From: a virus
Virus record (IMG/VR): IMGVR_UViG_3300025276_000173
Location: 1-27,438 of that record
Direction: 5' to 3' (one strand)
Length of the DNA stretch: 27,438 nucleotides
Shown: positions 1,674 to 24,457 of the stretch, piece after piece
How the letters are laid out: every line of letters begins with the position of its first letter
Position numbering within the stretch: the stretch's first letter is position 1
The notes under the pieces: model-generated
Told to the model about the DNA's origin: nothing
Databases searched by the model: none
The model's input: only the letters and a program-made list of their open reading frames with translations
Position numbers and translations under genes: made by a program

Positions 1674-1689
1674 ATTTATCTAGTTTTTC

Positions 1690-1701
1690 TATTATATATA
1701 T
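1690..1701 (+). promoter_or_regulatory. Late-promoter-like TATTATATA element abutting a start codon
   Basis: TATTATATA at 1690-1698 is preceded by TTTTTC and followed by TAT and the ATG of the phosphoesterase at 1702. The first T is exactly 12 bases before the ATG, as at 14206, 21073, 21825 and 24446. The promoter reading is inference. Confidence 0.5.
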
Positions 1702-2433
1702 ATGAGCGAAAAACAAAATAAAACACACAGACCAAGATTAAGAGGAAATGTTTTTAAAGCCTACGAGAAATCTATAAAAACAGAAGATAGAGTTTTAGTT
1801 ATTGGAGACTTACATGAACCATTTTGTTTGGATGGTTATTTATCTTTTTGTAAAAAAGTATATGCTGAAAATAACTGTAATAAAGTTGTTTTTATTGGGG
1901 ATGTAATTGACAACCATTATTCAAGTTACCATGAATCTGATGCGGATGGATTTGGTGGAAAAACAGAACTAGAATTTGCAGTTAATAAATTAAAAAGATG
2001 GTATAAGGCTTTCCCTAATGCTTTTGTTACTTTAGGAAACCATGACAGAATTATAATCCGTAAAGCACAATCATCTAATATTCCTAGTAAATGGATTAAG
2101 GAATTTTCTGAAGTGTTAGAAACTCCAAAATGGAAATTTGTTACAGAAGTTTTTATAGATGGTGTTCGCTACGTTCACGGAGATAAAAGCGGTAAGGCAA
2201 GAATGGCTGCTAAAAGAGATATGGTTTCTACGGTATCTGGTCATTATCATACGGATTTTTATTGTGAATGGATGTTTGGTAAAACCAGAGCTATCTTTGG
2301 AATGGCAGTAGGTTGTGGAATAGATAGTAAATCTTATGCAATGGGTTATATGCAAGGTGGAAAAAAAGAAGCAATTGGTGTTGGTGTTGTAGTTGGAGGA
2401 CATACAGCGTTCAACGTTAAAATGGCTTTATAA
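1702..2433 (+). CDS. Calcineurin-like metallophosphoesterase
   Basis: This 243-residue enzyme carries the complete metallophosphoesterase signature in order: GDLH (35-38), GDVIDNH (66-72), GNHD (112-115), HGD (159-161) and GHYH (180-183). These supply the dinuclear metal ligands and catalytic His, so it should hydrolyse a phosphomonoester or phosphodiester. The substrate (nucleic acid ends, cyclic nucleotide or protein phosphate) cannot be read from the sequence. Residues 1-30 are a basic, polar leader. It is the last rightward gene before the convergent integrase, overlaps the integrase end by 6 bases, and has its own TATTATATA element. It therefore appears to be a separately expressed accessory gene of the late set. 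Confidence 0.9.
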   Translation: MSEKQNKTHRPRLRGNVFKAYEKSIKTEDRVLVIGDLHEPFCLDGYLSFCKKVYAENNCNKVVFIGDVIDNHYSSYHESDADGFGGKTELEFAVNKLKRWYKAFPNAFVTLGNHDRIIIRKAQSSNIPSKWIKEFSEVLETPKWKFVTEVFIDGVRYVHGDKSGKARMAAKRDMVSTVSGHYHTDFYCEWMFGKTRAIFGMAVGCGIDSKSYAMGYMQGGKKEAIGVGVVVGGHTAFNVKMAL

Positions 2434-3726
2434 AATAAAATCAATTTTATCAGACCAGTCATCTGGAATATCTGCATCTATTGTATGTATATACTTTTGA
2501 AGTGCTGCTCTTGTTTCATGCCCTGTTATTGGTTGCAGTACTTCAATAGCTTCTGAGTAGTTTTTATTTTCAACTGTTCTAAGGTATCTGAATAAATTTG
2601 TAATAAAAGAATGTCTAAAAGAATACAATCCATATTCTAAACCAAGATTAAATTTATTTTTAACAACTTTAAAACGTTTAGAAAAAGTATTTCTTCTGGA
2701 GTTATCAGATGATTTCCATAAAGCTGGTTCATTCTTTGGAGTAAATAAAAAGTACTCCTTATTATATAGGTGTAAATTTAGTGCTTTAATATCTTCAATA
2801 AATATACTTGGTATTCTTTTTATTTTTAACGATTTGTTTTTAGCTTGGAAATATAATAAACCTTCTTCAAGATTTACATCCTTTACTTTTAGCCTATTTA
2901 CTTCAACTGGTCTAAGAAAATTATAAGCAACAAATTTTATATATAATAAAAGGTACGGATCAGTGTACTTTAACCAATTTACAATTTCTACTAATTCAGA
3001 TTTTGTAAAAGTTCTATCTGTTTTGGCTTTTGTTTTTTCGTTGGATATATCTTTAATGAAATTTCTGTCAATTAAATTCAGCTTATTTTCCATAACTGAA
3101 AACAATGCAGACAAAGAAGATTTATAATTGTTTCTAGTTCTGGCAGATGTTTTTTTAAGTTTTTGATTTAAAAAAGATACAATAGAAGATTTTGTTACCT
3201 TATTAATATCTTTTAGTTGATGTTCAGTTCCAATAAAATCTAAAAACTGTTCTTTAGCATAATAGTAATCTTTAGAGGTTACATCTGAAACTGTAAGTTT
3301 ACAATGTTCATGCGCTAACTTTAAAGCATCCTTTATACTGCAAAACTTTTTATCTCCTTCAAAATCGAAATCAGTTTTGTTTTTTTTATCAAATGGGGAA
3401 TATCCGTTTTTTAATTTTTTCTTTAACCTTTTTTTTAAAAAATTCAAATATTCTAATCTTGAAGATTTTTTTATATACCTATTTACACCAGCTTTCACAT
3501 TTGTTTGTCTTTCTAAAATATTTGTTTTAGGATTTCTAAATGACCAACGAATGTACCAGCTTTTTTTTAATGCGTTTTTTTTTTCGGTAGGTGTTAATTC
3601 AGACCATTTATCAACATTAACTCCCCCTGTGTAGAATTTTATAACGTATTTTTCTTGCATTTTATACGGTATTTTAAGAGTGTACTTTTTAGTGTACTTT
3701 TTAGCCTTTTTATTTTTTTTACCCAT
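2428..3726 (-). CDS. int: Tyrosine recombinase (phage integrase)
   Basis: This 432-residue integrase would catalyse attP x attB recombination through a 3'-phosphotyrosine intermediate. Catalytic residues visible are R272 (FLRPVEV), a beta-hairpin Lys around 296-301 (KNKSLKIKR), R371-H372 in YSFRHS (Tyr replaces the first His of H-x-x-R), H403 (TGHETR) and nucleophile Y412 (KYIH). Residues 130-230 look like the core-binding SAM-like domain. The very basic N-terminus (K-rich, residues 1-120) resembles an AP2/arm-binding region. The first codons (KYTKKYT) coincide with a direct DNA repeat that is probably an arm-type site. The putative attP lies just upstream of the gene, and a perfect hairpin ends two bases before the start codon. 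The end is convergent with the phosphoesterase. Confidence 0.95.
   Translation of the reverse strand: MGKKNKKAKKYTKKYTLKIPYKMQEKYVIKFYTGGVNVDKWSELTPTEKKNALKKSWYIRWSFRNPKTNILERQTNVKAGVNRYIKKSSRLEYLNFLKKRLKKKLKNGYSPFDKKNKTDFDFEGDKKFCSIKDALKLAHEHCKLTVSDVTSKDYYYAKEQFLDFIGTEHQLKDINKVTKSSIVSFLNQKLKKTSARTRNNYKSSLSALFSVMENKLNLIDRNFIKDISNEKTKAKTDRTFTKSELVEIVNWLKYTDPYLLLYIKFVAYNFLRPVEVNRLKVKDVNLEEGLLYFQAKNKSLKIKRIPSIFIEDIKALNLHLYNKEYFLFTPKNEPALWKSSDNSRRNTFSKRFKVVKNKFNLGLEYGLYSFRHSFITNLFRYLRTVENKNYSEAIEVLQPITGHETRAALQKYIHTIDADIPDDWSDKIDFIL
3679..3702. repeat. Tandem 12-bp direct repeat AGTGTACTTTTT, putative integrase arm site
   Basis: Two exact copies lie head to tail, at 3679-3690 and 3691-3702, inside the first codons of int. 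The same AGTGTAC pair with the same 12-bp spacing and orientation occurs at 3920-3943, on the other side of the tRNA-like core. The arm-site role is inference. Confidence 0.55.
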
Positions 3727-3728
3727 TA

Positions 3729-3763
3729 ATAAACGATTTAGAAAGTTAATCTAAATCGTTTAT
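3729..3763. promoter_or_regulatory. int leader: Perfect 14-bp hairpin in the int leader
   Basis: Arms at 3729-3742 (ATAAACGATTTAGA) and 3750-3763 are perfect reverse complements with a 7-base loop (AAGTTAA). It ends two bases upstream of the int ATG on the minus strand. In RNA it would bury the initiation region; as DNA it may be an operator or excisionase site. The 9-mer ACGATTTAG in its arms recurs at 3925-3933 inside the distal arm repeat. Confidence 0.7.
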
Positions 3764-3793
3764 TTACAGGGGGTTAAAAGGGTTTTAAAATAG

Positions 3794-3835
3794 TAGCGAG
3801 GAGCAGAATCGAACTGCCCACCTCAGAGTTATGAA
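3794..3835 (-). other. attP: Putative attP core: 3' part of tRNA-Met(CAT), anticodon loop to acceptor end
   Basis: On the minus strand the segment reads as tRNA positions 32-73. It has the anticodon loop TTCATAA, a 3' anticodon-stem strand CTCTG, variable loop AGGTG and T-arm GGCAG-TTCGATT-CTGCT. The acceptor strand CCTCGCT and discriminator A follow. The length is exactly the canonical 42 nt. The 5' half is absent: the bases preceding the loop (CTGGA) do not pair with CTCTG, and no D-arm is present. A tRNA 3' fragment beside a tyrosine integrase is the classic attP arrangement, where integration restores the host tRNA. The host tRNA should carry CAGAG before the loop. Confidence 0.8.
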
Positions 3836-3919
3836 TCCAGCCCTAAAAAATCAATATATCTTAAACAGCTAATAATCAATTATTTACATTTTTTAAATCA
3901 TCTTTTTTTTTCCTTAAAC

Positions 3920-3943
3920 AGTGTACGATTTAGTGTACTTTTT
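3920..3943. repeat. Distal AGTGTAC direct-repeat pair, putative integrase arm site
   Basis: AGTGTACGATTT (3920-3931) is followed directly by AGTGTACTTTTT (3932-3943). Both have the same period and orientation as the pair at 3679-3702. The two pairs lie roughly 120 bp to either side of the tRNA-like core. Between the core and this repeat (3836-3919) I see only AT-rich sequence. Confidence 0.55.
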
Positions 3944-4014
3944 GTTAATATTTTTTTTATTTTAATTTGCAATTAATTTAGAAGTGTTCTATATTGTAGA
4001 AAATTAGAGAAAGT

Positions 4015-4134
4015 ATGCAATTGACCACTGTGGAGTTAAAAAAAGAAGTAAAAAAAAATGCTATAATTATAAAAAAAATAAAAGATAAAATAGGTTCAAA
4101 AAAATTAAAACTTATTCTTTCAAAATTTGAATAG
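4015..4134 (+). CDS. Possible small basic protein beside attP
   Basis: This 39-residue, very Lys/Ile-rich ORF runs from an ATG at 4015 to a TAG at 4132-4134. Its end overlaps the convergent repressor-like gene by 23 bases. No domain is recognisable; size, charge and position between attP and the repressor would suit a small DNA-binding accessory factor, but that is speculation. Lys-rich composition is also expected by chance in such AT-rich DNA. Confidence 0.3.
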   Translation: MQLTTVELKKEVKKNAIIIKKIKDKIGSKKLKLILSKFE

Positions 4135-4453
4135 CTCTTTTTTGGCTTTCAACTTCAAACCATAATCCGTAAACTTCTACTTGTAAAAGTTTTACGTGGT
4201 TTTTGATTACTTCTTTAGCTAATTCTTCCAGTATTATTATATCTTCTACTTTAGTAATTATCTCTTTTTCAGAAATTCCTTTTTTGTTTTTAAATTCTTT
4301 AATAACAGAGTTTACATGGTTTAAATAGACTTGATCTACTTTACCTCTTGTAAAAGCTGTTCTTAGTGAATTACCTGCAATTGGCAATCCTTCAGCCAAA
4401 AAATCCCAAGTCAATCCTAGTTTTTTACGTTCTATTATAATTTTTTTCAACAT
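4112..4453 (-). CDS. Helix-turn-helix repressor-like protein (lysogeny control candidate)
   Basis: This 113-residue protein has an N-terminal HTH-like segment at about 12-50 (ERKKLGLTWDFLAEGLP, then a recognition-helix-like AGNSLRTAFTRGKV). A helical, Glu/Lys-rich C-terminal half (about 55-113) follows that could dimerise as a coiled coil. It lacks a LexA/CI-type peptidase domain. It is transcribed leftward, divergently from the early genes, and shares a 110-base control region with them, which is the usual arrangement of a phage repressor. I infer that it represses the early promoter at 4486-4521. No canonical TAnnTTTG is visible for its own promoter. The start ATG at 4453 is the first in frame. 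Confidence 0.75.
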   Translation of the reverse strand: MLKKIIIERKKLGLTWDFLAEGLPIAGNSLRTAFTRGKVDQVYLNHVNSVIKEFKNKKGISEKEIITKVEDIIILEELAKEVIKNHVKLLQVEVYGLWFEVESQKRAIQILKE

Positions 4454-4485
4454 GGCAAAAAATTTTTTTATTAAAAAAAGTACGT

Positions 4486-4521
4486 TTTGTTTGTTTGGTC
4501 TGTTTGCTTTGTATATATTTG
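4486..4521 (+). promoter_or_regulatory. Rightward early promoter of Bacteroidota type, with TTTG repeats
   Basis: TATATTTG at 4514-4521 matches the TAnnTTTG -7 element of Bacteroidota sigma-ABfr promoters. TTTG at 4490-4493 (20-base spacer) or 4494-4497 (16-base spacer) could be the -33 element. TTTG recurs six times between 4486 and 4521 in the shared leader of the repressor and early operon, so operators may overlap. AAAGTAC (4478-4484) and GTACTTG (4521-4527) form an imperfect inverted pair around it. Confidence 0.6.
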
Positions 4522-4563
4522 TACTTGTTACTAATATAAATATACGACAATTAAAACAAAATC

Positions 4564-4875
4564 ATGTTAATTTTAACAGTTTTAACTACAATTAATTCAT
4601 CTAACATCCTAAAAATGTGTTCAATAGAAACAGAACGCATTTATTATGACGATGATCCTCGTTCTTCAATCCCTTTTTACAAACAATTTCAAACAGATTC
4701 TTTATTGGTTGATATATCTGGAGCTGTTTCTGTAAAGTGGAATACCAAAACAGATTATGACTTTACAGAATTAGATTCTATTTCTATTGAAGTAAGTGGG
4801 GAAGATGGAGAGGTTTTTATAGACGATAATTTATTCTGCGAAATTACAAAAAATCTTGAATTTACAATTATATAA
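4564..4875 (+). CDS. First early gene, unknown protein
   Basis: This 103-residue acidic protein is the first rightward gene after the early promoter, about 40 bases downstream of the -7 element. It is rich in Asp and Glu, with short beta-like stretches (DSLLVDISGAVSVKW, SISIEVSGEDGEVFI). I recognise no domain. An internal ATG at 4615 (MCSIETERIYYDDD) is an equally plausible start and would remove the hydrophobic first 17 residues. Acidic first-early proteins in phages are often antagonists of host DNA-binding proteins, but nothing here proves it. Confidence 0.65.
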   Translation: MLILTVLTTINSSNILKMCSIETERIYYDDDPRSSIPFYKQFQTDSLLVDISGAVSVKWNTKTDYDFTELDSISIEVSGEDGEVFIDDNLFCEITKNLEFTII

Positions 4876-4876
4876 T

Positions 4877-5107
4877 ATGATAAATAACACACTTATAAAA
4901 AGTCTGTCTAAAACCAGTCTAACACTGGATTCAAAGACAAAAGAAATATTTAATCAGATAATAATTAAATCTTTTTATGAAGCAGCAACTTCAAAAGAGG
5001 AAGAAGTAATTGCTGCAATTGCGTTGCAGTTTGACTTAAACTGTTTTGAAGAAATATTAAGCATAATACAAGTTGAAGGATATAAAATGCCATTTGATAA
5101 TGAATAA
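4877..5107 (+). CDS. Unknown early protein
   Basis: This 76-residue, mostly helical protein has alternating polar and hydrophobic segments (EIFNQIIIKSFYEAATSKEEEVIAAIA is one long predicted helix). I choose the ATG at 4877, one base after the preceding stop, over an upstream TTG at 4856 that would overlap the previous gene. Its last 8 bases overlap the next gene (ATGAATAA), indicating translational coupling to the HTH-like protein. No family is recognised. Confidence 0.65.
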   Translation: MINNTLIKSLSKTSLTLDSKTKEIFNQIIIKSFYEAATSKEEEVIAAIALQFDLNCFEEILSIIQVEGYKMPFDNE

Positions 5108-5333
5108 ACTTGAAACACTAAGAACTGAAATAAACAAAATTTCTAAACATACTAGACAACATAAACTGGTATCTGAAAAATCAAATGTTAGTGTTTCAGC
5201 ACTTACAAAAATAAAAAAGGGGGATTTATGTGTATTGGATAATGAACCAAACATTAACAAATTAAATATCATTCTAAAGAACTATAAGGAAGTAGGTAAG
5301 GAGCAACTGAAAAACCTACAAAACATTCTATAA
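5100..5333 (+). CDS. HTH-like DNA-binding protein, Cro-like candidate
   Basis: This is a 77-residue protein. Residues about 10-45 have an XRE-like pattern: a first helix (LETLRTEINKISK), then KLVSEKSNVSVSALTKIKKG in which V-S-x-S-A-L-T-K-I-K-K-G resembles the recognition helix and its exit. The C-terminal part (NINKLNIILKNYKEVG) resembles the last helix of such domains. The start is ATG at 5100, overlapping the previous stop; an upstream TTG is less likely. Lying in the early operon opposite the repressor-like gene, it could be the antirepressor or Cro counterpart. This is inference from position. Confidence 0.7.
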   Translation: MNKLETLRTEINKISKHTRQHKLVSEKSNVSVSALTKIKKGDLCVLDNEPNINKLNIILKNYKEVGKEQLKNLQNIL

Positions 5334-5500
5334 TGTCTGAACTAGAACAAAATATTGTAAACCTATTACCAACGCTTTCTGAGGAAGCGAAAAGGAAAGC
5401 ACGTTTTGTTTTAGGGGAAGAACCAGTTACACCGAAAAAAAGAAATCAAAAGTTTTCTGAACAAAAAGTCGATTTAATTCTAAGTAAATTTTTTAAATAA
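5333..5500 (+). CDS. Small early protein, unknown
   Basis: This 55-residue charged ORF starts by TAATG overlap with the preceding stop and ends by TAATG overlap with the next gene, so it is embedded in a tight operon. It reads as a helix (LPTLSEEAKRKARFVLG), a Pro/Lys linker (PVTPKKRNQK) and a second short helix. No family is recognised. Confidence 0.6.
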   Translation: MSELEQNIVNLLPTLSEEAKRKARFVLGEEPVTPKKRNQKFSEQKVDLILSKFFK

Positions 5501-5637
5501 TGACTAAAATCAGTACAAAAATAAAACTAGCAAGATTCATTATTAATAACAAGCAAGAGTTTTCAAAAATAGAGATACAAAAAGCTCAACAATTTATAGA
5601 TGTGGAAGCAGTTGCCACAAACTCCAACTGTAATTAA
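5500..5637 (+). CDS. Small early protein, unknown
   Basis: This 45-residue ORF starts by a 1-base overlap with the previous stop. It is basic at the N-terminus (MTKISTKIKLARFI) and has a Q/E-rich helix after it. No domain is recognised. It is followed by an 11-base AT-only gap before the SSB-like candidate. Confidence 0.5.
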   Translation: MTKISTKIKLARFIINNKQEFSKIEIQKAQQFIDVEAVATNSNCN

Positions 5638-5648
5638 ATATATATAGT

Positions 5649-6389
5649 ATGTCAAGATTAAAAAGACCAGTACAAGAAAATGAAAATCCTAATCCTGCAA
5701 CAAAGTTTTTGCAATGGAAATCAAACGATCAAAATTTTGAGTTCTACAACAAAGAAGCAGGAGAAAAAGTAAAGGTTGAACTACCATTAAAAGTTTTGTT
5801 CCTAGAACACTACCATACTGTTAAGGGTTGGAGTGATAGCGCAAACAGTGGTATTTGGAGCAATGAAGTTTATTCTATTGGTAAAGAAGAATTTGAGGTT
5901 AAAAGCTCAAACGGTACAATCTGCAAAGGTGTGTACAAAGACAATAGAAGTTTGATTAAAAATGCTGGAGGTGTATATCACAGAAGTATTTATTGCATGA
6001 CACCAGAAGGCGAAATTGTAAACCTACAACTTAAAGGAGCTGTTATTGGTGGTTTAGATGCTGAGACTTCAGTAGATGGAAAACCTGTAAATGGTTGGAG
6101 TGATTTTTATTCTGGAGATAAAAAGAAAAAAATAAAAGGGGTTTCCCATTTATTAGACAATCAATGGATTGAAATCAAACAAGCAAAGCAAGGTAAAAAA
6201 GGTGCTGTAAAATACACAATACCATTTTTTGAAGTTGGTAAATCAATTACACCAGTACAGGATAACCTTGCAAACATAGCTTCTGAAAAATTACAGAAAT
6301 ATATGGATTCCTACTTTACAAAAGAATCTGTAACAGAGGTTGAGGAAGTAGAAGTGTTAGCTGAAAGTTTAGAAAGTTTAACCTTTTAA
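5649..6389 (+). CDS. Replication-associated protein, possible phage ssDNA-binding protein
   Basis: This is a 246-residue protein. A conserved-looking core spans about 15-215 (NPATKFLQWKS..., HTVKGWSD, GIWSNEV, AGGVYHRSIYCM, NLQLKGAV, GWSDFYSG) with many predicted beta strands. A flexible acidic tail of about 20 residues ends in E-S-L-T-F. A beta-rich core plus an acidic tail with a terminal aromatic is the design of phage and bacterial SSBs (T7 gp2.5, E. coli SSB), and the gene lies at the head of the replication module. The OB fold itself is not demonstrable by eye, so the SSB role is inference. Proteins of this type recur in flavobacterial phages (recollection). Confidence 0.65.
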   Translation: MSRLKRPVQENENPNPATKFLQWKSNDQNFEFYNKEAGEKVKVELPLKVLFLEHYHTVKGWSDSANSGIWSNEVYSIGKEEFEVKSSNGTICKGVYKDNRSLIKNAGGVYHRSIYCMTPEGEIVNLQLKGAVIGGLDAETSVDGKPVNGWSDFYSGDKKKKIKGVSHLLDNQWIEIKQAKQGKKGAVKYTIPFFEVGKSITPVQDNLANIASEKLQKYMDSYFTKESVTEVEEVEVLAESLESLTF

Positions 6390-6391
6390 CA

Positions 6392-6811
6392 ATGGTTAAG
6401 GAGATGTTTTTTGAGGTGCGTGAACAAGAAGTTGCGCACCTTCTACAAGAGGTTGAAGATGGAAATATACCAGCACTATCAACATACGGAAATCTTAAAA
6501 GATGCCAAGCATTATACGCTGAAGCAATTAAGCAAATAGAAAATTATGCTTTTGATGAAGCCAATAATTATACAGAAAAAACTTTTAAAGATTCTGGTTT
6601 TGTTTTCGAAAAAAGAAACGGTGGTATTAGATTCTCTTTTAAACACATAGAAGAATGGAATCAAGCTGAGAAAACAAAAAAAGAAATAGAAGAAAGATCA
6701 AAACAAGCATACTTCGCTATGCAAAGAAGTTTACTGGTAGGTACACAAGATGGAGAAATTGTAGAAGTGCCAAAAGTAACATATACAAAAGATTCACTAA
6801 TCGTAAGATAA
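6392..6811 (+). CDS. Unknown early protein, helical
   Basis: This 139-residue protein begins two bases after the preceding stop. It has helical segments throughout (VAHLLQEVEDG, YAEAIKQIENYAFDEANNY, EEWNQAEKTKKEIEERSKQAYFAM) and a short beta-like end (VEVPKVTYTKDSLIVR). The layout resembles small helical phage recombination or replication accessory proteins, but no motif identifies it. An in-frame ATG at 6404 is an alternative start. Confidence 0.7.
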   Translation: MVKEMFFEVREQEVAHLLQEVEDGNIPALSTYGNLKRCQALYAEAIKQIENYAFDEANNYTEKTFKDSGFVFEKRNGGIRFSFKHIEEWNQAEKTKKEIEERSKQAYFAMQRSLLVGTQDGEIVEVPKVTYTKDSLIVR

Positions 6812-6817
6812 AATAAT

Positions 6818-6988
6818 ATGGTAATCACAAGAGAAGCACAAGAACGAATTGTTTACGAATATACAAAAGAACACACAACAAAAGAAGTATTAGGGTTCAT
6901 TGATGGAATAGAAGCAACAATATCTTTAATGATAAAAATACAAAAGGATCAAAACAATTTTTATAAAAGCCTAAACCATGAGCAGTAA
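6818..6988 (+). CDS. Small early protein, unknown
   Basis: This 56-residue ORF starts with an ATG six bases after the previous stop and overlaps the following ORF by 11 bases. It has a polar N-terminus rich in Thr, Glu and Lys and a hydrophobic-periodic helix (VLGFIDGIEATISLMIKI). No family is recognised. Confidence 0.55.
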   Translation: MVITREAQERIVYEYTKEHTTKEVLGFIDGIEATISLMIKIQKDQNNFYKSLNHEQ

Positions 6989-7091
6989 AACACAAAGAAT
7001 GAAAGAGTTTTTAGACTGGATGAACAATAAAGTAAAAAGTATCCATGTAATGACAAACAAAGAATTTGTGAACATACTTGATAAGATGTAA
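6978..7091 (+). CDS. Tiny early ORF, unknown
   Basis: This 37-residue ORF overlaps the end of the preceding ORF by 11 bases and is the last before a long A/T tract. It is basic with a Trp-Met pair (FLDWMNNKVKSI). Its reality rests only on the coupled arrangement. Confidence 0.4.
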   Translation: MSSKTQRMKEFLDWMNNKVKSIHVMTNKEFVNILDKM

Positions 7092-7123
7092 AACGCAACA
7101 CTTCAACACTTTTTTGCCAATAT

Positions 7124-7203
7124 TAGATTTGTCAAAAAAAAAAAAAAAATAAAAAAAAAAATTTTTAAAAATTTTTTGTACTAATGCAACATTAAACTGT
7201 TGC
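7124..7203 (+). promoter_or_regulatory. Promoter-like element, pure A/T tract and small hairpin before the primase-helicase
   Basis: TAGATTTG at 7124-7131 matches the Bacteroidota TAnnTTTG element, although no well-spaced -33 TTTG is obvious. It is followed by 44 bases of only A and T (7134-7177), including runs of 16 and 11 A. A perfect hairpin then follows, GCAACA (7186-7191) with TGTTGC (7198-7203), ending 14 bases before the start codon. The tract could be a bent or unwinding element; the hairpin may tune translation. Confidence 0.45.
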
Positions 7204-7217
7204 GAAATCAAAAAAAA

Positions 7218-9599: not shown

Positions 9600-9603
9600 A
9601 AAC

Positions 9604-12554: not shown

Positions 12555-12594
12555 AAAATAATTACATAAAAAAAATAAAAACACCTTCTTTTTC

Positions 12595-12603
12595 TATTAT
12601 ATA
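12595..12603 (+). promoter_or_regulatory. Late-promoter-like TATTATATA element before the packaging operon
   Basis: TTTTTC precedes TATTATATA (12595-12603), which is followed by AGT, as at 21073. Here no ATG lies 12 bases on; the first good start is 12631. Conservation without an adjacent start favours a promoter over a translation signal. Confidence 0.5.
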
Positions 12604-12630
12604 AGTAATCAATATTGAATTTTTTTGATT

Positions 12631-12879
12631 ATGGATGGAAGAAAGAACAATAAAGGTCATGTAGGGAAAGCTGGTAGAAAGTCTAAAGCTGATGAAATGC
12701 TTTTGATAGAAAGACTAAGCCAACACATTGACAAAGATGAAGCTATATTAAAGCTTAAAGAATTAATGGATGCTGGAGATTTTAAAGCTATCCAACTGTA
12801 CATGGCTTATATGTATGGTAAACCAAAAGAAACAAAAGATATTACCATTAGTTCGGAGCAACCTTTGTTTGACTTATAA
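12631..12879 (+). CDS. terS: Putative terminase small subunit
   Basis: This 82-residue basic, helical protein begins with a Gly/Lys-rich arm (DGRKNNKGHVGKAGRKSK). Helices of the type seen in small TerS or its DNA-binding domain follow (ADEMLLIERLSQHIDKDEAILKLKELMDAGDFKAIQLYMAYMYGKP). The end overlaps the TerL start by one base, the usual TerS-TerL pairing. I choose ATG 12631 over a TTG at 12625. The identification rests mainly on position and general character. Confidence 0.7.
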   Translation: MDGRKNNKGHVGKAGRKSKADEMLLIERLSQHIDKDEAILKLKELMDAGDFKAIQLYMAYMYGKPKETKDITISSEQPLFDL

Positions 12880-14045: not shown

Positions 14046-14197
14046 TGGATAATCTGCAAATGATAGCAACAGTAGAATGTTTTATACATCACAAAACAGG
14101 AAAAGAAATACGCATTACTAAACCAAACAAACCTAATCATTATTTACTTCTAGTAAAAGCATTTGAAAATTGTAAGGGTTTTTTCATAAAAATTTAA
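14045..14197 (+). CDS. Small protein after terminase, unknown
   Basis: This 50-residue ORF starts by a one-base overlap with the TerL stop. It has a short beta-hairpin-like pattern (TVECFIHHKTGKEIRITKP) and a hydrophobic helix (HYLLLVKAFENC). No family is recognised. The coupling supports translation. Confidence 0.55.
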   Translation: MDNLQMIATVECFIHHKTGKEIRITKPNKPNHYLLLVKAFENCKGFFIKI

Positions 14198-14205
14198 CAT
14201 AAAAG

Positions 14206-14217
14206 TATTATATATAT
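14206..14217 (+). promoter_or_regulatory. TATTATATA element abutting the tail-assembly start
   Basis: TATTATATA at 14206-14214, then TAT and the ATG at 14218, with the invariant 12-base spacing. No TTTTT precedes it here; the flank is AACATAAAAG. Confidence 0.5.
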
Positions 14218-14871
14218 ATGAAGATAGAAATCAACGTTCCATCAAATCTAAATGAAATAACTTTAGGACAGTATCAAAGATATTTAAAGATAGCAGAAAG
14301 CAATCCAGAAGGTACTTTCTTGGATGCAAAAATGGTTGAGATATTCTGCGGAATACCTTTATCAGATAGCTATAAATTAAAGATGGCTAGTGTTGCTGCA
14401 ATTACTGATATTATAAATTCACTTTTAGAAGCTACACCAAAACACATTCAAAGGTTTACAATTAATGAAGTTGAATATGGCTTTATTCCAGACTTAGACG
14501 ATATGAGTTTAGGGGAATATATTGACTTGGATAACAATGCTAGTAAATGGGATCAAATGCACGTTGCCATGAATGTTTTATACAGACCAATTAAAACAAG
14601 TAAGCTAGGAAAATACAATATAGAACAATACGATGTGAACAATCCAGAGGCAATGAAAGAAATGCCATTGGGGGCAGCTATTGGTAGTCTTTTTTTTTTC
14701 TACAATTTAGGAATAGAGTTGTCGAATCATACGATTCTTTATTCCAGCAATCAAGTGGAGATGCAGAACATTCAAGAGCAGCTCAATTCGGAAGTAAATG
14801 GGGTTGGTATCAATCAATTTATGCACTCGCTAACGGATGTGTTGAACGATTTGAAGATATCACTAAATTAA
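14218..14871 (+). CDS. Tail assembly chaperone-like protein (short, zero-frame product)
   Basis: This 217-residue protein starts at the ATG next to the TATTATATA element. It is mixed alpha/beta with conserved-looking blocks LGQYQRYLKIAE, DLDDMSLGEYIDLD and HVAMNVLYRPI. At codons 158-161 the gene crosses a run of ten T (14690-14699). The zero frame then continues for about 56 codons (FFFYNLGIELSN... NGVGINQFMHSLTDVLNDLKISLN), while the -1 frame is also open and protein-like to 14954. This G/GT-like dual coding points to a tail assembly chaperone, although several genes lie between it and the tape measure, unlike lambda. The assignment is inference from architecture. Confidence 0.7.
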   Translation: MKIEINVPSNLNEITLGQYQRYLKIAESNPEGTFLDAKMVEIFCGIPLSDSYKLKMASVAAITDIINSLLEATPKHIQRFTINEVEYGFIPDLDDMSLGEYIDLDNNASKWDQMHVAMNVLYRPIKTSKLGKYNIEQYDVNNPEAMKEMPLGAAIGSLFFFYNLGIELSNHTILYSSNQVEMQNIQEQLNSEVNGVGINQFMHSLTDVLNDLKISLN

Positions 14872-14954
14872 ATGTACATCAATGTTTTACTTTTTTATCA
14901 TTCACAAAAGAGAAGGCAGAAATAGAGCAACAACAAATAAAAAATAAATTCTAA
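14688..14954 (+). CDS. -1 frame extension of the tail assembly chaperone-like protein (frameshift product)
   Basis: The -1 frame is open from 14688 to a TAA at 14952-14954 and has no ATG, GTG or TTG, so it can only be read by frameshifting from the upstream gene. The slip would give a product of about 245 residues. Its C-terminus (QFGSKWGWYQSIYALANG, then CVERFEDITKLNVHQCFTFLSF and a charged helix ending IKNKF) is protein-like and resembles GT-type extensions of flavobacterial phages. It stops in a TAATG overlap with the next gene, as a genuine coding end would. A sequencing indel in the T run is the main alternative. Confidence 0.7.
   Translation, partial: SFFFLQFRNRVVESYDSLFQQSSGDAEHSRAAQFGSKWGWYQSIYALANGCVERFEDITKLNVHQCFTFLSFTKEKAEIEQQQIKNKF
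14690..14699 (+). promoter_or_regulatory. T10 slippery sequence for -1 frameshifting
   Basis: Zero-frame codons CTT TTT TTT TTC contain the heptamer T-TTT-TTT, which fits the X-XXY-YYZ rule for -1 slippage. It is located exactly where the -1 frame opens: the last -1 stop, TAG, is at 14685-14687. I did not establish a downstream pseudoknot. Confidence 0.65.
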
Positions 14955-19097: not shown

Positions 19098-19237
19098 TAG
19101 AAAATATATTAGAATTATTAAAAAATACAGATTGCAAATCAGAGATAGTGCAATTAGCAAAAGGAAAAAATAAATTTCCAGAAAGTTTTAAAGAGGTATT
19201 TACAAGACAAAAACAAGATTTAGAATGGAAAAGATAA
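19094..19237 (+). CDS. Small protein before the tape measure, unknown
   Basis: This 47-residue, helical, basic ORF starts by ATGA overlap with the large tail gene and overlaps the tape measure start by 13 bases. Its position just ahead of the tape measure resembles small chaperone-like genes, but the sequence (NILELLKNTDCKSEIVQLAKGKNKF) is not diagnostic. Confidence 0.55.
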   Translation: MIENILELLKNTDCKSEIVQLAKGKNKFPESFKEVFTRQKQDLEWKR

Positions 19238-21036
19238 TTATTGATTTAGAAGCTAAAACAGACAAAGCTATAAAGGGGATTGATAAAGTTGCTGATAGTG
19301 TAAAAGACCTTAATAAATCTGTTACAGATAGTAATGATAAAACTCAAAAATCTTTAAGAGGTGTTGAGAGTGCTTCTAAATCAGCATCAAAAGGTATTAA
19401 GGCAATTGGTACAACTTTAAAAGCCATTGGTATTGGTTTAGTTATTTCTGCTCTTGGTACTTTAAAAGAGTTATTCTCACAGAATCAAAAAGTAGTAGAT
19501 ACATTTAATATTGTATTTGAAACTGCTGCTCAAATAGTAGGTCAAGTTGCAACTGCTTTTGTAGATACTTACAATGCTTTAACACAAACAACAGATCAGT
19601 TAGATGCTCTTGGTAAGGTTGCAAGTGGGATTTTAACAATAGTATTAAGCCCATTTCAACTTGCTTTTTATGGTATTGGTTTAGCTATTGATGAAGCCAT
19701 GTTAGCTTGGGAAAAATCATTTTTAGGAAATAATGATCCAGAAACAATAAAGGCTTTAAATCTATCCATATTAGAAACTAAAAATAACATTGTAGGAATT
19801 GCAGATGGAGTTTCACAAGCTGGTTCTGATATTGTAAATAATTTTTCAGAAGCAATATTAGAGGTTTCAGAAATTGGAAAAGTTGTTGTAAAAGAATTTG
19901 GGGAAGTCAGTATATCAGCAGCAAAAGAAGCTGCTAAAGCAAATGTTGAATTACAGAAGTCTGCTGAATTAGCAGCAGCAAGACAAGGTTTATTCTTTGA
20001 AAAATTTGATAGACAAGCAGAGAAATTAAGACAAATAAGAGATGATGAAACAAAATCTATTGAAGAACGTAAAGCAGCAAATGATGCATTACTAATTAAA
20101 ATAGATTCAGCAGAATCCGCAATGTTATCACAAGCACAAATGCAATTGGCTTTAGCAGATGCAAATTTAAAAAAGGATAAAGACAATATAGAGTTCCAAA
20201 CTGCAAGAATAGAAGCGTTAAGAGAATTGGCTGGTGTTGAAGCACAGATTGAAGGTATTAGGTCAGAACAGAAATCAAATGCTTTAGCTTTAGATAGAGA
20301 ATCTTTAGAATTAACTAATTCAAAAAAAGAAGCTGATGCAGAATTAAATGCTAATAAAAATCAATTTGAAGCGGAGCAAATACAAAACGAACTTGCAAGA
20401 TTAGAAAGACAAAAAGCATTAAATGAAGAAGAATCTAATTTAGAAAAAAAACGATTAGAAGATAAAAGAGATTTATATAAAAAAGGCACTATTGCATTTC
20501 AAGAAGCACAGAATGAACTAACTGCGTATGAACAAGCAAATGGACAAAAAAGAGTTACAATAGATAAACAGATTGCAAAGGAAAAAGAAAAGACTGTATT
20601 TGAATCTTTAGGAGCAATTGCTGGTTTATTAGGTAGCAACAGCAAATTTGGAAAAGCATTAGCGGTTACACAAGCAATAAGAGATACTTATACTGGAGCG
20701 AATAAGGCTCTTGCACAAGGTGGTATTTTTGGATTTATTGGTGCTGCTGGAATTATAGCATCTGGATTGGCAAACGTTAAACAGATCACTGCATCAAAAG
20801 AACCAGCAGCACCATCATTTGCAACTGGCGGTGGCGGTGGTGGAGCTGTTTCTACTCCTACTGCACCATCATTACCTCCAGCATTTAATGTTGTTGGAGC
20901 AAGTGAAACGAATCAATTAGCAGAAGCAATTGGAGGTCAATCACAACAACCAGTAAAAGCATTTGTAGTATCTAATGATGTTACAACTGCTCAACAAATG
21001 GATAGGAATATTGTGAAGGGTGCTTCGATAGGATAA
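19225..21036 (+). CDS. Tail tape measure protein
   Basis: This 603-residue protein has tape-measure architecture. A helical N-terminus with Lys/Asp/Ser repeats is followed by hydrophobic, membrane-like helices (about 57-80, 133-156). A long coiled-coil rich in Glu, Ala, Lys and Gln spans about 230-480, and a second hydrophobic Gly/Ala segment lies near 505-528 (GGIFGFIGAAGIIASGLA). A Gly-rich linker and a Pro-rich tail close it. By the usual rule for siphophages (about 1.5 angstrom of tail per residue) the tail would be roughly 90 nm. No sheath gene is visible, consistent with a non-contractile tail. Its late position in the tail block is followed by the capsid genes. Confidence 0.85.
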   Translation: MEKIIIDLEAKTDKAIKGIDKVADSVKDLNKSVTDSNDKTQKSLRGVESASKSASKGIKAIGTTLKAIGIGLVISALGTLKELFSQNQKVVDTFNIVFETAAQIVGQVATAFVDTYNALTQTTDQLDALGKVASGILTIVLSPFQLAFYGIGLAIDEAMLAWEKSFLGNNDPETIKALNLSILETKNNIVGIADGVSQAGSDIVNNFSEAILEVSEIGKVVVKEFGEVSISAAKEAAKANVELQKSAELAAARQGLFFEKFDRQAEKLRQIRDDETKSIEERKAANDALLIKIDSAESAMLSQAQMQLALADANLKKDKDNIEFQTARIEALRELAGVEAQIEGIRSEQKSNALALDRESLELTNSKKEADAELNANKNQFEAEQIQNELARLERQKALNEEESNLEKKRLEDKRDLYKKGTIAFQEAQNELTAYEQANGQKRVTIDKQIAKEKEKTVFESLGAIAGLLGSNSKFGKALAVTQAIRDTYTGANKALAQGGIFGFIGAAGIIASGLANVKQITASKEPAAPSFATGGGGGGAVSTPTAPSLPPAFNVVGASETNQLAEAIGGQSQQPVKAFVVSNDVTTAQQMDRNIVKGASIG

Positions 21037-21072
21037 AAAAGTAGTTGAAAATATAAAAAACAATAAAAAAAA

Positions 21073-21084
21073 TATTATATAAGT
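21073..21084 (+). promoter_or_regulatory. TATTATATA element before the capsid protease
   Basis: TATTATATA at 21073-21081, AGT, then the ATG at 21085. TTGAAAATA lies 19 bases upstream of the motif, the same arrangement as at the 21825 copy, and could be an upstream recognition element. Confidence 0.55.
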
Positions 21085-21660
21085 ATGAAAATGATAGAAC
21101 TTATTTTAGATGATGATGAAGCAATTGGAGTTGAAGCAATTAGCGTTGTAGAAAATCCTGCTATTGAATCAGATTTTATAGCACTTAATAATCAAGAGAT
21201 AAAACTTGCTGAAATAAGCAAAGAAAAAAGGTTGTTAATGGGTGCTTTATTAATCCCAAATAAACCAATTTACAGAAGAAACGGAGAAGATGAATACTAT
21301 GTATTCTTTTCTGCTGATACTGTCTTGAAGGCTTCACAAATGTATTTACAGAATGGCAATCAATCTAATTCTACTTTAGAACATGATGCACAATTAAAAG
21401 ATTTAACACTTGTTGAGAGCTGGATTGTAGAAGATAAAGAAAAAGACAAGTCAGCATTATATGGTTTAGATGTAGAAGTTGGCACTTGGATCGGATCTGT
21501 TAAGGTTGAGAATGATGAGATATGGAATGATTATGTAAAGACTGGAAAAGTAAAAGGTTTTTCAATAGAGGGATATTTTGCAGATAAGTTAGAAACACCT
21601 AATGAAGAATTGAAAGAAGATTTATCAGTAATAGAAGAACTTAAAAAACTATTATCATAA
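21085..21660 (+). CDS. Prohead maturation serine protease (XkdF-like)
   Basis: This 191-residue protein resembles the XkdF/prohead-protease type. It has an N-terminal EAISVVENPAIESDF entry sequence, IPNKPIYRRNGEDEYYVFFSADT, the catalytic His in TLEHDAQ (H100), and GFSIEGYF with the nucleophile S160. It should cleave scaffold and capsid proteins during head maturation. It starts 12 bases after a TATTATATA motif and heads the capsid group (protease, small Cys protein, coiled-coil protein, scaffold candidate, capsid). The tail after 170 is acidic and Leu-rich. Confidence 0.85.
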   Translation: MKMIELILDDDEAIGVEAISVVENPAIESDFIALNNQEIKLAEISKEKRLLMGALLIPNKPIYRRNGEDEYYVFFSADTVLKASQMYLQNGNQSNSTLEHDAQLKDLTLVESWIVEDKEKDKSALYGLDVEVGTWIGSVKVENDEIWNDYVKTGKVKGFSIEGYFADKLETPNEELKEDLSVIEELKKLLS

Positions 21661-21788
21661 TGAGGGCAGTTTATTGTAAGTGTAAAAATACGTATTCAAT
21701 ACAGTGCAATAATAATACTGATAAAAATTGCAAAACTCCAGAATATTGGAAGCAAGGAATAGGCAGTATTCACAAGGCAGAAGAATAA
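21660..21788 (+). CDS. Small Cys-rich protein, unknown
   Basis: This 42-residue ORF starts by a one-base overlap with the protease stop. Cysteines at 6, 8, 16 and 24 (YCKCKNT, QCNNN, NCKTP) are arranged like a small zinc-ribbon. Translational coupling suggests that it is made, but the role is unknown. It ends 48 bases before the next start, separated by the TATTATATA element. Confidence 0.6.
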   Translation: MRAVYCKCKNTYSIQCNNNTDKNCKTPEYWKQGIGSIHKAEE

Positions 21789-21824
21789 ATTTCAATTTGA
21801 AAATACAAAATAGTAATTAAATTT

Positions 21825-21836
21825 TATTATATAAAT
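21825..21836 (+). promoter_or_regulatory. TATTATATA element before the coiled-coil and scaffold genes
   Basis: TATTATATA at 21825-21833, AAT, then the ATG at 21837. TTGAAAATA again sits 19 bases upstream, as at 21073. Confidence 0.55.
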
Positions 21837-22223
21837 ATGAATATTCAAAATAGAGTTTTTAAGAAACTTGCAGAAGTAGAAAAAGTTGAATTGTCTGTTC
21901 AGAAAGTTGAGTTGGCAAGAAAAGCACCAAGTGTTTTAAAAGATTTAAATAAATTAGATGATAAGTTGAAAAAAGCAGAAGCAAAAATTTCAACTGTATT
22001 TAATTCATATAGAAAAGCTTGGCAAGATTTTCAAGACATTATTAATGATGTTTCTGGAGATAGAGATAAACTTGAAAATGATGTAGCTGAAATTAATCAA
22101 GCCGCTATGGATTTAGGAGTTGATTTTAGTTCTGTTGATGGTTTAAAACAAGCACAAGATGCTTCAAGAATGTTAGATGGATTAATTCCAGATTTAAAAA
22201 GATTATACAATAAACCAAAATAA
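21837..22223 (+). CDS. Coiled-coil capsid-region protein, unknown
   Basis: This 128-residue, all-helical protein is rich in Lys, Asp and Glu (KLAEVEKVELSVQKVELARKAPSVLKDLNKLDDKLKKAEAKI). It carries heptad-like hydrophobic spacing over most of its length. It sits between the protease and the acidic scaffold candidate in the head-assembly group, so a scaffold or internal head role is possible. I recognise no specific family. Confidence 0.75.
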   Translation: MNIQNRVFKKLAEVEKVELSVQKVELARKAPSVLKDLNKLDDKLKKAEAKISTVFNSYRKAWQDFQDIINDVSGDRDKLENDVAEINQAAMDLGVDFSSVDGLKQAQDASRMLDGLIPDLKRLYNKPK

Positions 22224-22233
22224 ACATTAATAT

Positions 22234-22806
22234 ATGAACACAAAAGAAACATTAAACAAGGTTCGCACTTTACTAGGGATAGAGGTAAAGTTTGAGCAAA
22301 CTAAACTTGATAATGGTGCTGTATTAGAAGCAGAAGTATTTGAAGCAGGAGCTGAGATATTTGTCGTTGCAGACGATGAAAGAGTAGCTGTGCCTGTTGG
22401 AGAATACCAAACTGAAGATGGTAAAATTATCGTAGTTTCAGAAGAAGGGATTATTGCTGAAATTAAAGATGCTGAAGCAGAAGAAGAAGAAGCACCAGCA
22501 ACTGAAGAAGTAGTTGAAGAAGAAGAATTATCAACTGAACCAGCAACTCCTAAAAAAGTAGTTAAATCAATTAGCGAAGAAACATTCTTTTCTGAAATTG
22601 AAAAATTAAGAAATGAGATCAACGAACTTAAACTTGCAAAAGTAGAAGTAAAAGAAGAAGAAGTAGTAGAATTATCTGCTGATTCAGAAGTTGAAGGAAT
22701 TTCACACAATCCAGAGAATTTAGCAGATAAAAAAGAATTAAATCTTTATTCTCAAAAATCAAAGAGTACAACAATTAGTAGAATTTTTAATAAAATAAAT
22801 AAATAA
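22234..22806 (+). CDS. Acidic scaffold-like capsid assembly protein
   Basis: This 190-residue protein is placed immediately before the major capsid gene. A folded-looking N-terminus (1-75) precedes a very acidic, Glu/Ala-rich disordered stretch (about 78-105) and a helical segment (112-140, FFSEIEKLRNEINELKL). The end is basic (about 170-190, SKSTTISRIFNKINK). This layout is typical of scaffolding proteins, which are degraded by the prohead protease and use a basic tail to touch the capsid protein. The Glu repeats also create a spurious Ser-rich ORF on the opposite strand. Confidence 0.75.
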   Translation: MNTKETLNKVRTLLGIEVKFEQTKLDNGAVLEAEVFEAGAEIFVVADDERVAVPVGEYQTEDGKIIVVSEEGIIAEIKDAEAEEEEAPATEEVVEEEELSTEPATPKKVVKSISEETFFSEIEKLRNEINELKLAKVEVKEEEVVELSADSEVEGISHNPENLADKKELNLYSQKSKSTTISRIFNKINK

Positions 22807-22810
22807 AAAA

Positions 22811-23746
22811 ATGCCACAACCAACAATTACAACAACTTACGCAGGAGAATTTGCAGGGAAATATGTATCCGCAGCACTTTTATCTGGTAAAACAATTTCA
22901 AACGGTTTAATCGAAGTTAAACCAAATGTAAAACACAAAGAAGTTTTAAAAAGAGTAGATTTAGCAGGAGCAATTGCAAATGCATCTTGTGATTTCACAT
23001 CTGCTGGAACTGTTACTTTAACAGAAAGAGTAATCGAACCAAAAGAATTACAAGTAAATTTAGAGCTTTGTAAAACTCCATTCCAATCAGATTGGGAAGC
23101 AGTATCAATGGGATATTCTGCATTTGACAATTTACCATCTAATTTTTCTGATTACTTTATCGGATTAATGGCTGAAAAAATTGCAGAGCAAACTGAATTA
23201 GACATCTGGAGTGGAACAGCAGGAGCAGGAACTTTTGATGGTTTCTCAACTTTATTATCTGCTGATGCAGGACACACAGGAGCAAAGAAAATTACAGGAG
23301 AAGCAATAACTTCTGCTAACGTAATTTCACAACTAGAATTGGTAGAAGCACAAATACCAAATGCTGTTTATGATAAAGAAGATTTATTTATCTATGTTTC
23401 TCCAAACATCTTAAGAGCTTATAAGTCAGCTTTAGGAGGTTTCCAAGCAAACGGACAAGGAGCTGCTGGTGTTAATGCACAAGGTCAAAACCAAGATATT
23501 GACATCCAATACTTCAACGGTGTTAAAATTGTTGCTGCAAACGGATTAGCAAATAATGCTGCAATCGCTACAACTAAATCAAACTTATTCTTTGGAACTG
23601 GTTTATTATCAGATCACAATGAAATAAAGGTTTTAGATATGGCTGATTTAGATGGTTCAAAAAATGTAAGATTTATTGCTCGTTATACTGCTGGAGTTCA
23701 GTATGCTGTTGTAGATAATATCGTTTCTTACGGATTAGGACTATAA
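22811..23746 (+). CDS. Major capsid protein (HK97-fold)
   Basis: This 311-residue protein is the expected major head subunit, placed after protease and scaffold and followed by a strong terminator. Features include AGEFAGKYVSAALLSGKTISNGLIEVKPNVKHKEVLKRV at the N-terminus and the E-loop/P-domain-like stretch KELQVNLELCKTPFQSDWEA. A-domain-like blocks IYVSPNILRAYKSALGG and IQYFNGVKIVAANGL are present, with a C-terminal RYTAGVQYAVVDNIVSYG. The A-domain and P-domain order fits HK97-like capsids of Bacteroidota phages. No separate decoration gene is obvious. The codons are more GC-rich and regular than in its neighbours, as expected for a highly expressed gene. Confidence 0.9.
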   Translation: MPQPTITTTYAGEFAGKYVSAALLSGKTISNGLIEVKPNVKHKEVLKRVDLAGAIANASCDFTSAGTVTLTERVIEPKELQVNLELCKTPFQSDWEAVSMGYSAFDNLPSNFSDYFIGLMAEKIAEQTELDIWSGTAGAGTFDGFSTLLSADAGHTGAKKITGEAITSANVISQLELVEAQIPNAVYDKEDLFIYVSPNILRAYKSALGGFQANGQGAAGVNAQGQNQDIDIQYFNGVKIVAANGLANNAAIATTKSNLFFGTGLLSDHNEIKVLDMADLDGSKNVRFIARYTAGVQYAVVDNIVSYGLGL

Positions 23747-23774
23747 TATAACTTAATTAATAATCATTAAAATT

Positions 23775-23802
23775 GGGGTAGGTTCTTGCCTATCCCTTTT
23801 TT
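23775..23802 (+). terminator. Rho-independent terminator after the capsid gene
   Basis: The stem GGGGTAGG (23775-23782) pairs with CCTATCCC (23789-23796) with one G-U pair across a 6-base loop, followed by six T. It lies 28 bases after the capsid stop and would end or attenuate the capsid transcript before the tail-tube gene. Confidence 0.85.
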
Positions 23803-23822
23803 ATTTAAAACAATATAATAAT

Positions 23823-24356
23823 ATGGCTTGTTTAACAATAGGAAATGGAAGAACATTACCTTGTAAAAAATCAACTGGGGGATTAAAAGCAGTTTATTTT
23901 GCTGATTATGGTACTTTAGGCGCTCCTTCAATAACTGGTTCTGAGATCACTGGTTTGGGTGGAAATCCAGATTGGTACAAATACGACATTAATGGTTCTT
24001 CTTCTTTAGAAACAACTGTTAATAGTTCAACAGAAAACGGAAGTTTATTTTATGCACAAACTTTGAATTTAAGTTTACTTGTATTAGATAAATCAACACA
24101 AGAACAAATTAAAATTTTAGCAACTAGCAGACCTCATGTCATTGTTGAAGATTACAATGGTAATTTATTTATGATTGGTTTAGAAAACGGAACAGAAACA
24201 ACAGGAGGTTCAATCGTAACTGGTGCTTCAATGGGAGATGCTCAATCTTTTTCATTAACACTTGAAGCAAAGGAAACATCTCCAGCTTATTTTGTTGGAT
24301 CAACTTATGATCTTGCAGCAGATACTAATGCATCACAAATAAATCCAAACGCTTAG
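23823..24356 (+). CDS. Major tail (tube) protein candidate
   Basis: This 177-residue protein begins MACLTIGNGRTLPCKKSTGGLKAVYF, a start recurring in flavobacterial tail-tube proteins (recollection). A beta-rich body (NGSSSLETTVNSSTENGSLFYAQTLNLSLLVL, LENGTETTGGSIVTGASMGDAQSFSLTLEAKE) resembles tube folds. It is placed alone between two terminators, which suits a subunit needed in high amount. The tape measure and other tail genes lie upstream, not beside it. The start ATG is preceded by an AT-rich tract without an exact TATTATATA, so its promoter is unclear. Confidence 0.75.
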   Translation: MACLTIGNGRTLPCKKSTGGLKAVYFADYGTLGAPSITGSEITGLGGNPDWYKYDINGSSSLETTVNSSTENGSLFYAQTLNLSLLVLDKSTQEQIKILATSRPHVIVEDYNGNLFMIGLENGTETTGGSIVTGASMGDAQSFSLTLEAKETSPAYFVGSTYDLAADTNASQINPNA

Positions 24357-24379
24357 AATTTTTTCATCTTTGGTTTTAA

Positions 24380-24414
24380 AAAGGGATAGTCTTAAGTGAT
24401 TATTCCTTTTTTTT
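24380..24414 (+). terminator. Rho-independent terminator after the tail-tube gene
   Basis: The stem AAAGGGATA (24380-24388) pairs with TATTCCTTT (24401-24409), with one G-U pair, around a 12-base loop, followed by further T (to 24414). It lies 23 bases after the stop, and the TATTATATA element for the next operon follows at 24446. Confidence 0.8.
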
Positions 24415-24445
24415 ATTTTAAATAAATAAAAAAACAAAGTTTTTG

Positions 24446-24457
24446 TATTATATATAT
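24446..24457 (+). promoter_or_regulatory. TATTATATA element before the portal operon
   Basis: TTTTTG precedes TATTATATA (24446-24454), then TAT and the ATG at 24458, with the standard 12-base spacing. It is directly downstream of a terminator, so new initiation here is needed for the portal genes. Confidence 0.55.

Follow-up and report, generated by a model that had tools for sequence, protein, structure and literature searches.

The virus record IMGVR_UViG_3300025276_000173 of IMG/VR was analysed over its whole length of 27,438 bases (the window), with the focus on the short motif TATTATATA, which precedes several gene blocks and would form part of a late promoter. Profile matches of the window proteins (Pfam and phrog) include a terminase, a portal protein, an XkdF-like protease, an integrase and, weakly, a capsid protein, which together suggest a tailed phage with a marine flavobacterium as host. 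The nearest isolates, judged by the portal protein and gene A, are the Nonlabens phages P12024S and P12024L. The genes concerned lie on the + strand and encode a metallophosphoesterase (1702-2433, Pfam Metallophos, E-value 1.8e-10), the sigma-like protein P0001 (11631..12101), a terS-like protein (ATG at 12631), the terminase large subunit P0002 (12879..14045, Pfam Terminase_3C, E 1e-19), the 217 amino acids of gene A (ATG at 14218, phrog_32199), the XkdF-like head protease (ATG at 21085), the probable major capsid protein P0003 (22811..23746) and the portal protein P0004 (24817..26643, phrog_33693, E 1.4e-113), the latter being the second gene of the unit starting at 24446. P0003 matches phrog_11320, a family of unknown function (E 2.5e-42), and the major head protein family phrog_422 (E 0.0011). 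The designation of these blocks as late units, made in the earlier note, finds its support in gene content alone (terS and terL, head protease, scaffold-like and capsid genes, portal, phosphoesterase), and it is from gene function that we infer the late timing.

A two-part element in the window

Six exact copies of TATTATATA on the + strand, at 1690, 12595, 14206, 21073, 21825 and 24446, had been listed in the earlier note, and all of them were found at these positions. In five copies an ATG lies exactly 12 nucleotides (nt) from the first T of the motif, and the copy at 12595 has no ATG at this distance, as had also been described. The list was incomplete, since the window holds ten exact copies on both strands; the further ones are located at 2760 (+), 2940 (-), 4869 (-) and 27151 (+). 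Ten copies compare with 1.48 expected, and at least ten were reached in 0 of 100 shuffles (both strands); TATTATATANNNATG occurs five times against 0.02 expected, a number likewise reached in 0 of 100 shuffles. What the first account had missed is a second, -35-like box, YAAA, which starts 19 nt before TATTATATA at the six listed sites only. The four unlisted copies are without it; those at 2760 and 2940 are situated inside the integrase gene, that at 4869 at the end of an open reading frame (ORF, 4564-4875) and that at 27151 a few codons after the start of a short reading frame. Searched on both strands, the composite YAAAN15YATTATAYA occurs at exactly the six listed sites, with 0.02 expected.

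The six predicted late promoters, all on the + strand, are distributed as follows. The metallophosphoesterase gene is preceded by 1671..1704 (box TAAAT at 1671, motif at 1690-1698, ATG at 1702), terS by 12576..12633 (TAAAA at 12576, motif at 12595-12603, ATG at 12631), gene A by 14187..14220 (TAAAA at 14187, motif at 14206-14214, ATG at 14218) and the XkdF-like head protease gene by 21054..21087 (TAAAA at 21054, motif at 21073-21081, ATG at 21085). A fifth, 21806..21839, stands ahead of a gene at 22234 and the probable capsid gene (CAAAA at 21806, motif at 21825-21833, ATG at 21837), and the sixth, 24427..24460, ahead of the portal gene (TAAAA at 24427, motif at 24446-24454, ATG at 24458). No promoter of the YAAAA/TATTATATA kind was found directly upstream of the P0003 capsid gene when this region was inspected. 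Intrinsic terminators were predicted on the + strand downstream of the capsid gene (23775..23796) and just upstream of the 24446 promoter (24378..24411); these two matches fit unit borders, yet the regional counts of the terminator scan were not above those of shuffles.

Promoters of the flavobacterial TAnnTTTG type had been thought to be confined to the control and replication regions. The intergenic + strand copies agree with this, being discernible only at 4514 and 7124, but the other copies lie mostly inside genes: TANNTTTG occurs 17 times on the + and 30 times on the - strand. The copy at 4514, in the control and replication region, has a TTTG box upstream. No coordinate of TANNTTTG matches any of the six late sites. 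The site at 7124 belongs to a long A-rich run (7120-7200) upstream of a primase-like gene, possibly a replication-region promoter or origin. Beside the integrase gene, a minus-strand stretch at 3790-3860 resembles the 3' part of a tRNA and is perhaps the attachment site of the phage; ARAGORN called no tRNA at this stretch.

Distribution of the element among relatives

Relatives were collected with a sigma search (44 viral loci) and a terminase search with P0002 as query (80 loci), the contigs being partly shared. The 118 fetched loci included five pieces of the window and five duplicates from the same contigs, which were removed, and the set comprised 109 sequences (1.04 Mb, window included) after duplicate removal. 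The later sigma set also left out more same-contig duplicates, the locus L119 and the named phages except P12024S; this exclusion list was made by hand and a few duplicates may remain.

A motif search in related phages had been proposed as a check, and in these relatives the composite of TATTATATA and box marks the same late units. Outside the window the 109 sequences contain 217 copies of TATTATATA, and in 77/217 the distance to the ATG of a following ORF of at least 40 amino acids is exactly 12 nt; the next peaks, at 34 and 36 nt, represent terS. Copies at 12 nt precede several unrelated gene families. The gene preceding the scaffold-like gene varies, and the cassette stands before whichever comes first. 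Among non-redundant sites the upstream box reads AAA (-18..-16) in 20/20 sites with an ATG at 12 nt and, per column, in 24-25 of 26 terS-type sites; in 35 control copies of TATTATATA no column beyond the word itself exceeded 0.5 bit. Upstream of gene A the exact motif was present in 58/96 loci, the remainder being mostly one- or two-base variants, e.g., CATTATATA. In 15 of 20 long records, which we picked ourselves, AAAN15TATTATATA was found at 51 sites on one strand per record, compared with 3 for the reversed pattern. The five records without it carry variant -10 sequences at the same genes, namely CATTATATA (L018, L032), TGTTATATA/TGTAATATA (L042, L044) and CGTTATATA (L048).

A further scan started from the pattern AAAN15TATTATATANNTATG instead of from genes and was compared with a scrambled word; its counts all refer to the matches listed, i.e., 113 new loci of 119 stretches, some of them other stretches of known contigs, and all 120 loci for the scrambled control. 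Late-gene or sigma relatives were detected in 63/113 new loci vs 5/120 scrambled ones. Loci with at least two matches belonged to the lineage in 21/21 cases, and the control had none. Sites opened an ORF of at least 50 amino acids in 80/88 cases within the lineage, 18/50 elsewhere and 52/120 in the control.

At L066:1366 and L068:1596 a methyltransferase-like gene beside the terminase has its own cassette at exactly 12 nt, and in three loci the gene behind a 12-nt cassette contains a DPPYG motif, which we take to be DNA-methyltransferase-like. Because such a gene carries its own copy, the cassette seems to travel with inserted genes. The terS leader of the window (12604-12630) holds TCAATATTGA, and those of relatives hold AACTGATTTAAACTGATT or AGTAAACTAATT; these inverted or direct repeats are a possible operator. 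The composite was not found in FPSV-S2 (TerL 49%) and TCUEAP1. Genome contigs searched with the sigma profile gave 127 candidate stretches with one relative, and no cultured host was found among them. L119, a 3.5 kb contig of a Campylobacterales metagenome-assembled genome, encodes a protein closely related to the phage sigma (69%); the contig is probably mis-binned phage DNA.

P0001 and its covariation with the -10 sequence

P0001 is encoded between the helicase/nuclease block and terS, and by its predicted fold it is a probable sigma factor of the extracytoplasmic function (ECF) type. The model of 156 amino acids comprises eight helices (predicted local distance difference test, pLDDT, 86.3; predicted template modelling score, pTM, 0.47) and has the two-domain ECF layout, with sigma2 (approximately residues 1-81) and sigma4 (approximately 93-156) and no sigma3. 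Comparison by VIA gave a Z of about 10, with sigma2 superimposing at 2.2 Å over 77 residues on 5uxx_C and sigma4 at 1.9 Å over 64 residues on 2h27_D. A search of 50,697 phage records (E 0.01) detected no relative of P0001.

Three types of -10 sequence can be distinguished: YATTATAYA (YA), a TG type and the CG type CGTTATATA. The sigma profile scan returned 80 loci. A first k-mer search of 36 loci with distant sigmas (below about 50% identity) yielded no clear promoter; CGTTATATA was then spotted when the upstream regions of 19 of the 36 were inspected by eye, and afterwards counted in all of them. At 12 nt from an ORF the distant loci gave 0/36 for TATTATATA and 10/32 for CGTTATATA, the 123 near loci 91/262 and 0/6, respectively. 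The table relied on counts promoters at offset 12 only, without manual changes, and these strict labels leave 53 of 127 sigma loci unlabelled. The table contains 86 YA, three TG and ten CG promoters; 74/127 loci have at least one strict promoter and none is mixed. On the sigma tree the strict labels require two changes for three types, which is the minimum, and 0 of 200 shuffles were as low. In L042, L044 and L138 the promoters of terS and gene A are both of the TG type.

Only the sigma positions 36, 65 and 68 separate YA from TG and CG. Residue 68 is Q or K with A-11; with G-11 the TG clade has N at this residue and the CG clade has D, and the P12024S sigma likewise has D in the aligned column. 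In our own alignment Y59, R60, T64, F66 and Y70 are in register with Y83, R84, N88, Y90 and Y94 of Mycobacterium SigH, which equates residue 68 with N92. SigH N92 bonds C-11 of the template strand, i.e., the -11 base pair (PMC6411747, accessible part). The sigma4 helix (SYHSLYNTYRK-like) is conserved in the YA, TG and CG clades, and so is the AAAA box. The link between motif and sigma-like protein, first drawn in the earlier note, gains support from this covariation.

Of 115 sigma loci with enough upstream sequence, 51 also have the composite, with any -10 type, in the 400 nt preceding the sigma gene, mostly at 180-206 nt, vs 203/2860 background windows; within the window there is none upstream of the sigma gene. 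In L102, L087, L032, L035, L016 and others the box is followed by a conserved GTCAT-like stretch, and the leader measures about 170-190 nt. The far-upstream promoter may possibly serve autoregulation or a leader RNA. In L041, L042 and L044 of the TG clade, CGTTATATA and an A-rich box are located 21-56 nt before the called sigma start, and this CGTTATATA differs from their TG-type late promoters.

Start of transcription, rival readings and relation to known systems

We assign a probability of about 0.77 to the reading that the six sites are bipartite late promoters, YAAAA-N14-YATTATAYA, used by the host RNA polymerase together with P0001, and that five of the units yield leaderless mRNAs. According to this reading sigma4 would read YAAAA and sigma2 the -10 sequence as Y-12, A-11, T-10 and T-9. 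The sigma gene closes the replication block, so that its product would turn on the late units, namely those for packaging, head, tail and lysis-side functions. The predicted late promoter is better defined than first described and looks functional.

In the accessible parts of the respective accounts, SigH promoters are given as G-11T-10T-9 (PMC6411747) and Flavobacterium promoters as T-12 A-11 (PMC6847099), and both registers place +1 at offset 12 from the first motif base. In five of the six units this position would coincide with the A of the ATG; for terS it would be 12607, leaving a 24-nt leader. With +1 at offset 12, CG-type promoters read C-12 G-11 T-10 T-9 and match SigH. In 78 non-identical leadered promoters, some of which share common descent and some of which are chance matches inside genes, offset 12 is A in 64/78 and G in 8/78 and offset 11 is T in 56/78; the terS promoters, which have no ATG at this point, retain T/A at -1/+1. 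Because both registers put +1 on the A of the ATG and terS keeps T/A, leaderless late mRNAs are likely, and most late messages probably start at the start codon itself. A -10 spacing that puts +1 on the start codon is found at 5/6 window sites and, as strict offset-12 sites, in the 74/127 sigma loci. The leaderless late mRNAs proposed earlier are thus favoured by the two registers and the T/A pair, except at 12595, where terS would be leadered.

A translation-initiation signal, AT-rich and Kozak-like in a phylum without Shine-Dalgarno use, could also produce an exact 12-nt distance such as that of five window copies and of 77/217 in relatives, and in Bacteroidetes the bases close to the start serve to adjust initiation (PMC6847099, accessible part). 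We regard it as hardly tenable and rejected it, since there is no fixed ATG distance at terS (31-46 nt in relatives) or in part of the gene-A copies (13-32 nt), and a second, equally conserved box starts 19 nt further upstream. Moreover, the capsid and portal genes, which lie inside units, have no motif of their own, the motif recurs some 180-206 nt ahead of the sigma gene in relatives, and it tracks the sigma clade. The composite stands 12 nt from unrelated ATGs but further from terS, which argues for a promoter, as the earlier note had held; its 12-nt rule is not universal in relatives. A generic AT-rich word was rejected by the shuffles and by ten other AT-rich words, some of which also peak at one offset (TTTAATTAT 27/124 at 7 nt, ATATATATA 22/115 at 8 nt).

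The sites might be promoters whose transcripts start a few bases off, with very short leaders or starts inside the ATG and no programmed leaderlessness. Start-site choice is flexible, +1 was deduced from sequence, and distances of 13-14 nt occur; nevertheless, distance 12 dominates across unrelated genes, the three -10 types and P12024S, and leadered promoters keep T/A at offsets 11/12, so that we consider such a displacement unlikely. Less probable still is a reading by the host RNA polymerase with a host sigma, P0001 doing something else. The -10 could be read in a sigma-70-like manner (TATTAT vs TATAAT), and the contact between P0001 and promoter is one that we infer from the sequence alone; a scan for host sigma-70-type sites (55 and 82 vs shuffle means of 72.9 and 73.5) was uninformative. 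Against a host sigma speaks that the -10 sequence varies with the clade and the residue 68 of the phage sigma, that FPSV-S2, with a related TerL, is without the composite, that no P0001 relative was detected in the phage collection, and that the six sites are without the flavobacterial -7 element TANNTTTG (consensus in the accessible part of PMC6847099).

Several points weigh against P0001-dependent, leaderless late promoters. The sequence evidence for P0001 is weak: phrog_1740 matches at E 3e-4 and in 6/28 members, Pfam gives none for P0001 and Sigma70_r2 in 1/28 members, and PDB sequence searches with the sigma profile, one distant sigma and the P12024S sigma returned no sigma match. The top Foldseek matches of the model are ECF sigmas with a best E of 1.6e-3, none being at or below 1e-3. 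The covariation rests on only two independent tree changes, with counts inflated by near-copies, and looser labels, for which the mixed loci L048, L152 and L163 were set to CG by hand for the first tree, give six changes. Residue 68 of the window is K, as in 3/62 YA loci, instead of Q (59/62). The gene-A distances of 13-32 nt also count here, as does the fact that this phage, like most of its relatives, is an uncultivated contig. The box-to-motif spacing is by our reckoning 2-3 bp shorter than that of SigH (PMC6411747, accessible part). In Flavobacterium johnsoniae, leaders exceed 10 nt in 87% of transcripts with a predicted promoter (PMC6847099, accessible part), which argues that host ribosomes are not specialised for leaderless mRNA, and in such hosts leaderless mRNAs would make up a minority of the transcripts.

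The late promoters of T4 (TATAAATA) have an AT-rich -10 sequence that is read by a phage sigma, gp55, as would be the case here; to our knowledge they have no -35 box, whereas an upstream box is conserved in the window and its relatives. A close likeness is that of the Nonlabens phages P12024S and P12024L (Inhavirus), which share the order VRR-NUC, sigma, terminase and a related portal protein (36%). In P12024S a gene annotated as Sigma-70 region 2 (PF04542) follows VRR-NUC and precedes the terminase. Both phages have CGTTAATA 12 nt from late ATGs and five exact copies of CGTTAATANNNNATG each (0.03 expected in P12024L); their sigma is only 19% identical to P0001 (alignment A2), and motif sequence and box spacing are unlike those of the window.

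Mycobacterium SigH and Escherichia coli SigE resemble P0001 in combining sigma2 and sigma4, here by predicted fold, and in a bipartite promoter with an A-containing upstream box, and the CG-type -10 holds GTT as in SigH; they differ in that the present sigma is phage-borne and the -10 of the window's clade is AT-rich with A-11 (PMC6411747, accessible part). According to the accessible part of PMC4331800, phages phiEco32 and 7-11 are similar in that a phage-encoded sigma is accompanied by a short motif before structural genes, the sigma gene lies behind its own promoter and the motif differs between relatives. They are enterobacterial podophages, P0001 has no match in the phage collection, and the phiEco32 motif TAATGTATA differs from that of the window; leaderless starts and a covarying sigma residue are not mentioned in that part of the account. 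The system would work like other phage-sigma late promoters, and it is set apart as a new form by the matched sigma residue and by a promoter that is fused to the start codon; in the open literature, as far as covered, no description of such promoters in bacteroidete phages was found.

On balance we favour the wider interpretation that bacteroidete phages of a widespread lineage, to which the isolated Inhavirus belongs, produce a separate class of late mRNAs that are leaderless and depend on the phages' own ECF sigma, by means of a 34-bp promoter-start-codon cassette which can be placed before any gene and whose -11 base changed together with residue 68. If this is true, late translation would start on bare AUG ends in hosts with mostly leadered mRNAs, and an isolated phage would be at hand for the study of late translation from leaderless mRNAs in a phylum that does not use Shine-Dalgarno sequences. 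The natural matched pairs of sigma and promoter (A-11 or G-11; residue 68 Q/K, N or D) would bear on how ECF sigmas read base -11, next to the melting point, and the late genes of a large group of uncultured Bacteroidetes phages would have a readable code.

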